Positions 16,894-21,058 of a stretch of 21,190 bases of DNA are shown one piece after another. The position numbers and the translations under genes are program-made. Under the pieces are notes generated by a model that did no database searches, was not told the origin of the DNA, and worked only from the letters and a program-made list of their open reading frames with translations. This stretch comes from a virus, in the IMG/VR virus record IMGVR_UViG_3300035034_001192, positions 1-21,190 of that record. One strand, given 5' to 3'. Position 1 is the first letter of the stretch. The number at the start of each line of letters is the position of its first letter.

Positions 16894-18984
16894 TTAACCT
16901 CTTTTAATTAATTGACGACTGTTGAAAGCATTCAAAGAACGATTGGTTGCTGTACCTGGTGTTCCTAGTTTCTCGGAAACCATTTCGTCAATCAAAACGT
17001 CAATCTCGATACCGTCACTTGTTTCACGTTGTTCTGTTTTAGCGCTGGCATCTGAGTTGTTGGTAACATTCACAATAACGTTACCACCTCCACCACCGCT
17101 CGAACCATGCATTTGAACACCCAGTGAACCATCAGGACCTCGTTTCAGAGGCATTACAGCTTCTGGACCAGCTTCACCCATTACACCGAAAGAACCTCCG
17201 TTAGCAAAAGTAAAAGGTGTAGGTTGGTTTACTACACTGTTTGTGAAAGTTCCACCTTTTGCAAAAGGTCTGGCAACAGGTGAAGGAGCACCTCCGGCAC
17301 TACGAGCAGGTGCGTTAAATTGACCACCACCGAAACTGGTTGCGAGTGCGTTAAATCCTGCTTCAATACCAACGTTTAGTATTTTGTCCAATATTTTATC
17401 CAGCACGCTAGTGACCGCATTACCGAAAGTTTCCCACGCAGACCTACCTTGCATTAAACCCTGCCTCATGTTGGAAAAAAACGACTTCGTTGCAGATTTA
17501 GTAAAATCTATACGATCTTTCAGTTTCTTATTGTTTTCACTCAACACCGCCATGCCTTCAGCGAGTTCCGTTATTTTTTGCCTTTGTTGAGGTGTGAGTT
17601 CTATATTTTTTTGCTGCGCCTCGTTTAAAAGCTGGGTTTCACGAGTCAACTGTTCAGCAGCTAAGGAACTCATGGTTAGAGCTTCACCTTCAGCACGTAA
17701 AGTGTTTATAGTACGTTCACCACCTTCGACTAATTCATCCCATGCTTTAGCTGCAACACCTATCCCGTCAGCCAACCCACGGAGCTTGCTTGAAACAAAG
17801 TTTACAGCGCTATCGACACCTTTACCTATCGCACCCACATAATCTTCTGGTGCAACACCTTTACCAATACCAACCTGCAAAGCTATCGCTATTTTCGTCC
17901 CTGCGTCTTCCATCTGCTTCTCAGCAGCAGTAGTGTCACCGAAATTTGCTGTTGACCATATAAATTTACCTACACCAGATATGTAGTCTTTTAAACCGTC
18001 GAACAAGCTGAAAACTTTGTTGACGAAATTCCTGAAAGGTTCAAACGTGTTAGCAGCCCATGCAGCGACCATTCCAGTGAAAGCCAGTAAAGCAACTATT
18101 AAAACCAAAGGGTTGGCTAAGAGCCAAGCCCCTGCCATTTTTGTCCCTGCCACAAGGGTGGTTGTTCCCAAGACTGCAATGGATTTAATTAAACTGGCTA
18201 AACCAACAACAATTGCAGGTGAGGAAAACAAAGCTATAGACGCTGCGGCTGCAATTGCATAAGGGCCTATAGCTTCAATACCGTTTGCAAGACTGTTTAA
18301 GCTGTTTTTGGTAAACTTGGACCAGTCCACAAGTTGAATCAAGCTAACAACCAAAGCAATTATCGCGATCGTACCGAGTGAAACAGCGTTGAAAACAGAT
18401 TTAAACGCTACCGCCAAACCTTTAAGCGGGTTTTTCATAGTGTTTAAAATAGCGCTCAATTGAGTACCTTGCTGTAATGCAATTGTCAACGGGTTCATAC
18501 CCATCGCAGCCGTTACACCGATGTCTTGGAACTGCGCCGCAACATTCGCAGTATTAAACCTGTTAGGCATATTATCATTTGCAACACCTCCTGCGGCTGA
18601 ACTAACATCATTGCGTGTCATGCCCACACGTTTTTCAGCATTGACAACTCTAAGTGTTGCTTTAGCCATTTTATCAGCAGCTACAGCAGACGCATGTAAA
18701 CTTTTAGCGTTAGCCTCTTCTGCTACCGCTGCTTTCATTGCTGATCTTGCTTTCATTAGATCAGCTTTACTGGCTTTAGTTGTGGTTTGTAAAGATTTAA
18801 GTGTTGCGTTTGCTTTAGCTTTTGAAGCTCTGGCAGCAGCAAGACCGGCAGAGGTGACAGCAGTATCAACCTTGTTAGTTGCTGTTGAAACGCCTCCGGC
18901 AGCAGCCTTCAACTTGTTTAAAGAGAGTGTGGCTTTGTCCAAGTCAGAAGTTTCAGCTTTAAAACCTAATTCAGCAATGTCCAC
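16894..18984 (-). CDS. Tail tape measure protein
   Basis: The 696-residue protein sets tail length. Residues 1-130 are Ala/Lys-rich coiled coil, hydrophobic membrane-like segments lie at about 188-218 and 238-308, and the C-terminal part has the MGEAGPEAVMPL motif and the Gly-rich SSGGGGGN turn typical of tape measures. At the usual rise of about 0.15 nm per residue, the tail would be roughly 105 nm. The start is GTG at 18984 with GAGGG about 7 bases upstream, 11 bases after the end of the frameshifted chaperone gene. This layout is standard for siphophages. Confidence 0.92.
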   Translation of the reverse strand: MDIAELGFKAETSDLDKATLSLNKLKAAAGGVSTATNKVDTAVTSAGLAAARASKAKANATLKSLQTTTKASKADLMKARSAMKAAVAEEANAKSLHASAVAADKMAKATLRVVNAEKRVGMTRNDVSSAAGGVANDNMPNRFNTANVAAQFQDIGVTAAMGMNPLTIALQQGTQLSAILNTMKNPLKGLAVAFKSVFNAVSLGTIAIIALVVSLIQLVDWSKFTKNSLNSLANGIEAIGPYAIAAAASIALFSSPAIVVGLASLIKSIAVLGTTTLVAGTKMAGAWLLANPLVLIVALLAFTGMVAAWAANTFEPFRNFVNKVFSLFDGLKDYISGVGKFIWSTANFGDTTAAEKQMEDAGTKIAIALQVGIGKGVAPEDYVGAIGKGVDSAVNFVSSKLRGLADGIGVAAKAWDELVEGGERTINTLRAEGEALTMSSLAAEQLTRETQLLNEAQQKNIELTPQQRQKITELAEGMAVLSENNKKLKDRIDFTKSATKSFFSNMRQGLMQGRSAWETFGNAVTSVLDKILDKILNVGIEAGFNALATSFGGGQFNAPARSAGGAPSPVARPFAKGGTFTNSVVNQPTPFTFANGGSFGVMGEAGPEAVMPLKRGPDGSLGVQMHGSSGGGGGNVIVNVTNNSDASAKTEQRETSDGIEIDVLIDEMVSEKLGTPGTATNRSLNAFNSRQLIKRG

Positions 18985-18995
18985 AACCTAACCCT

Positions 18996-19376
18996 CTACT
19001 TTTTTTTCTGCTGTTCTTGTTCTCGTTTGGACTGAATATCTTCTATTTCTTTGTTTATCTCGTCACAGTAAGCAATGTCCATTGACATGAGTATATCATA
19101 TTCAATCGGATATACAAGATTTCCTGTAATAATAGACCAGGCGTGAAACTCTGTTGGGGGTATCAGTCGGCAATGACCTTCGACTATGCGAGAAATCGAA
19201 TCGTTTACAGAAGTGTACCACTCCCACAAATATTTACCTGCAAGAGGAAAACTGAACTCAGGAGTGTATATACCCAGTCGTTCATTACGTTCTCGTCGCG
19301 TTTCTCCGGTTTTATCTGGTGTTTCGTAACGTGCGTAAATTCTTACAGCTTCAACAAGGCACGTTTTCAGGTCTAA
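18996..19376 (-). CDS. Tail assembly chaperone, frameshift-encoded part (gpT-like)
   Basis: This frame is open from the slippery site at 19376 down to the TAG at 18998-18996, 126 codons, and would be the C-terminal part of a fused gpG-T chaperone of about 251 residues. It has no start codon of its own at the beginning: the only internal start is TTG at 19229, which would miss the first 49 codons. The first residues after the shift are Leu-Asp-Leu-Lys-Thr-Cys; a conserved WEWYTS stretch and a Lys/Gln-rich end follow. In lambda, gpGT binds the tape measure and the tube protein. Its place between the major tail protein and tape measure fits that role. Confidence 0.85.
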   Translation of the reverse strand, partial: LDLKTCLVEAVRIYARYETPDKTGETRRERNERLGIYTPEFSFPLAGKYLWEWYTSVNDSISRIVEGHCRLIPPTEFHAWSIITGNLVYPIEYDILMSMDIAYCDEINKEIEDIQSKREQEQQKKK

Positions 19377-19750
19377 AAAAAAGCCTTTTCGTCACTGATA
19401 GCCTCCTCAAGCTGAAGGCTAAACCAAGGAAGTTCTTTCATTACTTCGTCGAAATTCTTTCTGTTGAACTCAGGCGCTTTATCACCTTTGAAGGTCATGT
19501 TTTTATCCCACACCCAACCAGTTACTGCAGCAAATATAAGTTTTTTTGTATTCTCTTCTATATCTTCAGCTTTAAAAGTCTTACCACGAGCTTCCAAACG
19601 GTTCTTCTCATTCAAGATACTTCTTTTAATCTTCTTCAACGCAGGGTCGTTGATAGAAAGCAAAGAAACTTTTATACCTAACTCGATGTCAGTTTTAGGA
19701 TGAACGATTTCAACAAATCGTTCCATGGGTTTTAGATCACTTAAATCCAT
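19373..19750 (-). CDS. Tail assembly chaperone (gpG-like)
   Basis: The 125-residue protein lies between the major tail protein and the tape measure, the position of lambda gpG. It is helical and charged, with the motif TGWVWDKNMTFKGD in the second half. Near its end the mRNA has eight U residues: GCT TTT TTT TAG in frame 0. This allows a -1 slip at U UUU UUU that joins it to the downstream frame. AAGAAGG lies about 8 bases before the ATG. The unshifted product ends EKAFF. Confidence 0.88.
   Translation of the reverse strand: MDLSDLKPMERFVEIVHPKTDIELGIKVSLLSINDPALKKIKRSILNEKNRLEARGKTFKAEDIEENTKKLIFAAVTGWVWDKNMTFKGDKAPEFNRKNFDEVMKELPWFSLQLEEAISDEKAFF
19376..19382 (-). other. -1 ribosomal frameshift site (T TTT TTT)
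   Basis: On the minus strand the seven-base slippery sequence T_TTT_TTT ends two codons before the gpG stop TAG (19375-19373). After a -1 slip the next codon is TTA and the frame continues for 126 codons. The slippery pattern, its place in the gene and the gene order match the conserved frameshift in siphophage tail chaperones. I did not find a convincing downstream stem-loop by eye. Confidence 0.85.
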
Positions 19751-19770: not shown

Positions 19771-20556
19771 TTAAGCTGCGATCACTGCGTCTGTTGGAGC
19801 TGCGAAACCGAACGCGAACCCAGAATCATTTGTAGCCGTAACTCTTGATGTAATCACAAGACCTAGTTCAGCAGTTGTGGCTGTAAATGTTGCAGATGTC
19901 TCACCTGCAATTGCAGTACCGGCAGCAAACCATTTGTAAGCGTAAGTGATTGTAGCGTCACCAGTGAATGTTCCTGTGCTACAAGTAAGCACTTCACCAA
20001 CTTGAGCAGTACCAGTGATTGCAGGGGCTGCTGTAAGAACAGGAGACGTACCAGCAGTTGTAGGGACAACCACAGTTTCTTCTTGTTGGAAACCTAGTGT
20101 GAAGATTTCAATATCGAAGTCTTCATTTCTACCGCCTGGACGAGTCGGGCCTGCAACTAAACCTCGGTTGTAGAAAATAGTTCCTGTTTCACCAACCGCC
20201 CCGTCTGGGCGCAATTCTTTAAATGCGTAGTTGTTGTTATTACCTACCACAGCAGCAGCACGCAGAATGATCTGCCCAGCGTCTGTTACCGAACGTGCGA
20301 CTTCTAAATCAGGTGAACCAGCATCTGTAAGACCTTTAGCTTTTTGAATAACAGTGTCACCCCACACGTCGTAGTTCAACATGTTAGTGTTTTTACCTGT
20401 TTCACCGCGAGAGCCAACACCACCCACTTCAACCCATGTTAGAGCGTTATAGTCACCAACACTTAAAACGGTGTTCTGTGGTGTTGCACAAACGTAAAAT
20501 TTTGAGGCTGCATTTGAGTTTGCAAAAGCTTTGATTAATTTTAGTAGATTTTTCAT
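19771..20556 (-). CDS. Major tail protein with C-terminal Ig-like domain
   Basis: From the ATG at 20556 the protein has 261 residues. Residues 1-160 form the tail tube domain, with VGGVGSRGETGKNTNML and the YNRGLVAGPTRPGG loop. A hinge, then an Ig-like or bacterial Big-type domain (about 170-258) follows, with AQVGEVLTCSTGTF, YAYKWFAAG and a strand ending SRVTATNDSG. Such domains project from the tube and may touch cell-surface sugars or decorate the tail. GTG at 20565 would add three residues, but AAGG lies at the right distance from the ATG at 20556. Its own promoter precedes it, in line with the high copy number of tube proteins. Confidence 0.88.
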   Translation of the reverse strand: MKNLLKLIKAFANSNAASKFYVCATPQNTVLSVGDYNALTWVEVGGVGSRGETGKNTNMLNYDVWGDTVIQKAKGLTDAGSPDLEVARSVTDAGQIILRAAAVVGNNNNYAFKELRPDGAVGETGTIFYNRGLVAGPTRPGGRNEDFDIEIFTLGFQQEETVVVPTTAGTSPVLTAAPAITGTAQVGEVLTCSTGTFTGDATITYAYKWFAAGTAIAGETSATFTATTAELGLVITSRVTATNDSGFAFGFAAPTDAVIAA

Positions 20557-20588
20557 GTCGGACACCTTGATTTTCTAATTTAAAGAAC

Positions 20589-20618: not shown

Positions 20619-20648
20619 ATATTAAGGTGAAAACAGTTTTACTGTCAA
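20619..20648 (-). promoter_or_regulatory. Sigma-70-type promoter for the major tail protein
   Basis: On the minus strand TTGACA (20648-20643) is followed after 18 bases by TAATAT (20624-20619). The -35 box contains the TGA stop of the tail terminator gene. A 13-bp palindrome ACAGT-TTT-ACTGT (20633-20645) overlaps the -35 box and spacer and could bind a dimeric regulator. Confidence 0.6.
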
Positions 20649-21058
20649 GCTTTAAAATAATTGTACCTTAACGTTATGGGAATCATTATACCAGGAGATT
20701 GTTCTAAAATACCTTCAACGTTAGGGAGGTCGGTAATATTGACAACGACATTTCCCCCCAAGTCAGCAAATTTAGACCCTTTCACAAATCCGTCTGATAT
20801 CTGATTTGCTATGACAAGAGCTGAATAAATCCCACTGTCGTCAACAGGCCAGTGTAGAACCAAACGCATGATACCTCGGTAAGTTTTTGCGTCGTCCCAA
20901 TATTGGTTTGCAATATTGTTGGGAATATAAACAATCTCAACCCACTTATCTGTTGAATCTACTTTAAAAGTTCTACCAATGTATTTAACAGGAATGTTTG
21001 TTGGAGCAACCGCTGCTATGACCGCTTTCTGCAAAGCCTCTAAAACATATCTTTCCAT
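20645..21058 (-). CDS. Tail terminator protein (DUF4128-like)
   Basis: The 137-residue protein looks like the DUF4128/gpU group of tail terminators, which cap the tube and join it to the neck. Typical traits are the N-terminal helix ALQKAVIAAVAPTNIPVKYIG, the strand RGIMRLVLHWPVDD, the helix after it, and a beta end reading IPITLRYNYF. It is small and has no membrane segment. Its start overlaps the upstream neck gene by one base (TAATG). Its position directly upstream of the major tail protein agrees with the role. Confidence 0.82.
   Translation of the reverse strand: MERYVLEALQKAVIAAVAPTNIPVKYIGRTFKVDSTDKWVEIVYIPNNIANQYWDDAKTYRGIMRLVLHWPVDDSGIYSALVIANQISDGFVKGSKFADLGGNVVVNITDLPNVEGILEQSPGIMIPITLRYNYFKA

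Follow-up and report, generated by a model that had tools for sequence, protein, structure and literature searches.

The window (the whole stretch of DNA that was analysed, 21,190 nt of the IMG/VR record IMGVR_UViG_3300035034_001192) carries on its minus strand a series of tail genes in the order terminator, major tail protein, A ORF, T frame, tape measure protein and further tail genes as far as a J-like protein. The gene pair studied here lies entirely on this strand and occupies the slot between the genes for the major tail protein and the tape measure, where the tail assembly chaperone pair is classically found. The features of the locus are as follows.

20645..21058, minus strand: tail terminator gene (Pfam PF13554, E = 5e-15; PHROG 179)
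19771..20565, minus strand: major tail protein gene, directly upstream of the pair (PHROG 158, E = 7.3e-24)
19373..19750, minus strand: frame-0 gene, G-like tail assembly chaperone of 125 aa (PHROG 313; fold matches)
19376..19382, minus strand: putative slippery heptamer U_UUU_UUU, in phase (U_UUU_UUN kept in 16 of 22 lineages)
18996..19376, minus strand: -1 frame, T-like extension of 126 codons (TTA 19376-19374 to TAG 18998-18996)
18996..19750, minus strand: predicted fused G-T product of 251 aa (two-frame layout also in relatives)
16894..18984, minus strand: tape measure protein gene, immediately downstream of the pair (PHROG tape measure families at E = 1.7e-57, PHROG 8892 among them; Pfam TMP_2)

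Elsewhere in the window, coding tandem repeats were found at 264-493 and 2455-2858 in two minus-strand genes, with 15-nt units encoding PPAAA repeats and 21-nt units encoding PDAPIVA repeats.

The 3' end of the frame-0 ORF, GCTTTTTTTTAG, is located at 19384-19373 (minus strand), and its stop codon is the TAG at 19375-19373. The heptamer lies within a run of eight T residues (T8, 19382-19375), and the UAG stop follows it immediately. The preliminary description had read this end as GCT TTT TTT TAG and had proposed that a -1 slip reads TTA and continues through 126 open codons to a stop 11 bases before the tape measure start, giving a fused product of about 251 residues. These readings, given there without a strand, were confirmed on the minus-strand sequence, with 11 nt between the T-frame stop and the GTG of the tape measure gene at 18984, and with 125 and 126 residues adding up to 251. 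The -1 frame is closed upstream by a TGA (19394-19392) and opens 18 nt before the post-slip TTA, and the two frames overlap by only five codons before that codon. The downstream frame had also been said to lack a usable start near its beginning, in agreement with which the first ATG, GTG or TTG after the slip is a TTG at +147 nt, without a clear Shine-Dalgarno sequence. When the downstream region was shuffled 10,000 times by dinucleotides, no shuffled version had an open frame of 126 codons, and T_TTT_TTT occurred in frame a single time, at the junction, among the 6,392 in-frame positions of the window's genes. The 3' end of the T frame (19007-18996, minus strand) reads CAG AAA AAA AAG TAG and places an in-frame A_AAA_AAG before the second stop; this motif is kept in the near-identical relative L002 and absent from the Rhizobium phages. 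A second slip there would add only about nine residues, and the motif is probably incidental.

The two halves of the predicted product were compared with known proteins by sequence profile and by structural model. The A half (the short form) matched PHROG 313 "Tail assembly chaperone" over residues 9-125 (E = 3.6e-10) and no Pfam family, and the T half matched PHROG 20700, a family of unknown function (E = 9.4e-23). When a Pasteurella relative was searched in its fused form, the tail assembly chaperone family PHROG 15027 covered both halves nearly end to end. AlphaFold models were obtained with pLDDT values of 78 (A half) and 93.9 (T half). In Foldseek searches against BFVD, both half-models matched the same full-length phage tape-measure/tail-assembly chaperones, including those of Escherichia phage Seurat, Acinetobacter phage Loki and Escherichia phage K1H, with E values of 6.7e-5 for the A half (CcrColossus) and 6e-4 for the T half (Seurat). 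Superposition of the A half on the solved HK97 chaperone 2ob9 gave a VIA Z score of 5.0 and an rmsd of 4.2 over 93 aligned residues, which is too low to be used alone. Against the PDB, Foldseek returned nothing significant for the A half, a second structural look at the T half gave no match above Z 3.4, and a sequence-profile search gave nothing credible. The assignment to the gpG-T type of chaperone, made in the preliminary description, is supported by the PHROG 313 match of the frame-0 product and by the chaperone-like fold of both halves.

Relatives were gathered by tblastn against phages and by profile searches of viral contigs, and after removal of duplicates at 90% identity 22 lineages were counted. 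The tblastn matches were Rhizobium phages P106B and X2_24 (both halves), Pasteurella phages Pm86 and Pmp13, and Roseobacter phage CRP-6; the fused profile, run against genome contigs, retrieved no relatives. Comparison of homologues had been proposed as one check, and a frameshift would have been refuted by homologues whose frames were continuous or were kept apart with no slippery site. In all 22 lineages, at every locus where both halves were present, the second half was in the -1 frame relative to the first, and in none were the two joined. An in-phase heptamer of the form X_XXY_YYZ was present at the junction in 17 of them and GAU_UUU in the other five. By lineage, the junctions were U_UUU_UUU (8), U_UUU_UUC (7), U_UUU_UUG (1), G_GGA_AAC (1) and GAU_UUU followed by A or U (5), with the canonical G_GGA_AAC replacing the U-type site in the Pasteurella phages. 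The codon before the U sites was GCT, GAT, CGT, TCT or AGT, so that the amino acid varied (A, D, R or S) and the final T was constant, even at a GC3 of 0.6, where T is seldom the third base of a codon. If the lineages are treated as independent and the codon usage of each genome is taken into account, the probability of finding xxT-TTT at all 16 U sites is about 10^-15.8, a figure that is too extreme because the lineages share ancestry. Two groups of relatives without X_XXY_YYZ carry GAU_UUU sites that are preceded by G (GGAUUUU) and followed by UAY or ACG (L024, L025, L026, L027 and L029 in the first group; L006, L037-L041 and L045 in the second), and the slip in these groups likely falls on U_UUU.

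The T half was 22-54% identical to its relatives in the same frame, and it was conserved from the first post-slip residues (L7, G24, R28; TRRERN motif), long before a start codon occurs in the window. In 10 of 10 pairs tested, pN of the T half was lower than pS (ratio 0.21-0.50), and this also held for the first 60 alignment columns. These substitution patterns indicate purifying selection on the -1 frame, beginning at the slip.

Taken with the family and fold resemblance, the exact anatomy of the junction, its conserved site and the selection on the -1 frame argue strongly that the gene pair is one recoded tail-assembly-chaperone gene of the lambda G/GT type, with a -1 slip on the U run; we hold this to be very probable. 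The layout, the conserved site, the selection and the family and fold resemblance are seen in the sequences themselves; the occurrence of slippage, its rate and the chaperone roles of the products are inferred from them. Most ribosomes would decode GCU UUU UUU UAG and terminate, yielding the 125-aa G-like protein. In a minority, tRNA-Phe in the P and A sites on U_UUU_UUU would move back by one base and re-pair with UUU UUU; the slipped ribosomes would then read UUA (Leu) and 126 codons in all, yielding the 251-aa G-T-like protein. If the proteins act as in lambda, the tape measure protein would be coated by the short form, the rare long form would recruit the major tail protein, and the slip rate would set the ratio of short to long form.

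The same fused protein would result if RNA polymerase added one U on the T8 run, so that some mRNAs encoded the fusion in frame, and a run of this length is present in the window and its two nearest relatives. The other relatives mostly have 6 or 7 T residues, often as TTTTTTC, and some have 4 or 5, whereas the Pasteurella phages have G_GGA_AAC and no T run at the junction. What is conserved is the phase of the heptamer and not the length of the run, which makes transcriptional slippage an improbable explanation of the locus, although it may play a small part in the window itself. Fainter still is the prospect that the second frame forms a gene by itself, with a start of its own that is used by re-initiation or coupling. 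X2_24 is annotated in that way, and some relatives have a TTG, GTG or ATG in the overlap or soon after the slip. The start-free stretch after the slip nevertheless measures 147 nt in the window and 168-246 nt in others, among them L015 and L020 (180 nt) and P106B (246 nt), yet the post-slip residues are conserved, and a separate gene would leave the kept heptamer unexplained. Least credible of all is a sequencing or assembly error in which the true run is T9 and the gene continuous: errors are frequent in homopolymers, and a single additional T would fuse the two frames, but the same T8 is found in near-identical contigs from two other metagenomes, which differ from the window by substitutions, and all 22 lineages, with their varied run lengths, hold the frames apart in -1.

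Elements that might stimulate the proposed ribosomal slip were sought around the site. Single-sequence folds of the RNA downstream of the site in the window were no better than those of shuffled sequences, no consensus structure was found downstream of the site in 15 relatives, and a search of Rfam gave no match. Not every -1 frameshift site has a detectable stimulatory element. An AGGAGG was present 19 nt upstream of the site in the window, further than usual, and 16 nt upstream in CRP-6, and it was not general in the relatives. UUN codons, UUY in particular, are counted among the shifty A-site codons (PMC4066793), and in E. coli U_UUU_UUU is a weaker shift site than A_AAA_AAG (PMC5009743). 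The distance from site to stop is zero only in the window and its near-identical relatives and 6-24 nt in the other lineages. With the stop codon directly behind the heptamer and no structure seen, slow termination at the UAG might be the main stimulator in the phage of the window, a tentative proposal that we consider rather unlikely. If it were true, the family would exchange U_UUU_UUY, G_GGA_AAC and GAU_UUU without a conserved RNA structure, and the ratio would be tuned only by the slippery sequence and its spacing from the stop.

The principle of G/GT recoding is long established, and the gene pair of the window is a well-supported example that had escaped annotation. What is new is the family-wide view: a U-type site is retained, and in places exchanged for other motifs, among phages whose records omit it. 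As had been anticipated for ordinary gene callers, the GenBank records of two relatives show the second frame only in fragments. The annotation of one morphogenesis gene is corrected here, and the same evidence covers Rhizobium phages P106B and X2_24. The relatives also offer a compact natural set of sites for measuring U-rich slippery sequences in bacteria and for following the evolutionary replacement of one site by another.

These two Rhizobium phages, vB_RglS_P106B and RHph_X2_24 (Rigallicvirus), are the closest named relatives, with halves about 43-50% identical to those of the window, the same layout, and the sites U_UUU_UUU and U_UUU_UUC. Unlike the window, they have extra genes between the T frame and the tape measure gene (a "putative tail protein" in P106B, L003:3283-4134; a putative homing endonuclease gene in RHph_X2_24, L004:3246-3872), and their frameshift is unannotated; a search of the accessible literature found no paper on it for P106B. 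The slippery site of lambda is a G-A heptamer, in place of which the window has U_UUU_UUU, and the two systems are likened by layout: both have two overlapping frames between the genes for the major tail protein and the tape measure, a -1 slip (predicted in the window) near the end of the first frame, and a short form with a rare long form. Lambda G/GT and its counterparts in long-tailed phages are given as known cases of -1 recoding (Xu, Hendrix and Duda 2004, as cited in PMC5009743), and the lambda ratio of short to long form, about 30:1, matters for assembly (PMC5009743). In Escherichia phage 9g, the tail chaperone gene likewise has a U-rich slippery site, CCCUUUUUUU, with a reported shift of -2 (PMC4276943) as against -1 in the window. 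Genes 17.5/17.5* of SPP1, a phage of a Gram-positive host, have the same role and a putative -1 site of the all-U type, UUUUUUC (PMC6316719), which is identical to the site of several relatives; the likeness is one of role and site, and the SPP1 site is itself predicted. With this example, and with U_UUU_UUY as the rule among the relatives, the preliminary description somewhat overstated the rarity of an all-U site. The PRFect training data include 2,476 phage genomes in which a gene is frameshifted, a tail assembly chaperone gene in 2,397 of them (PMC10885494).
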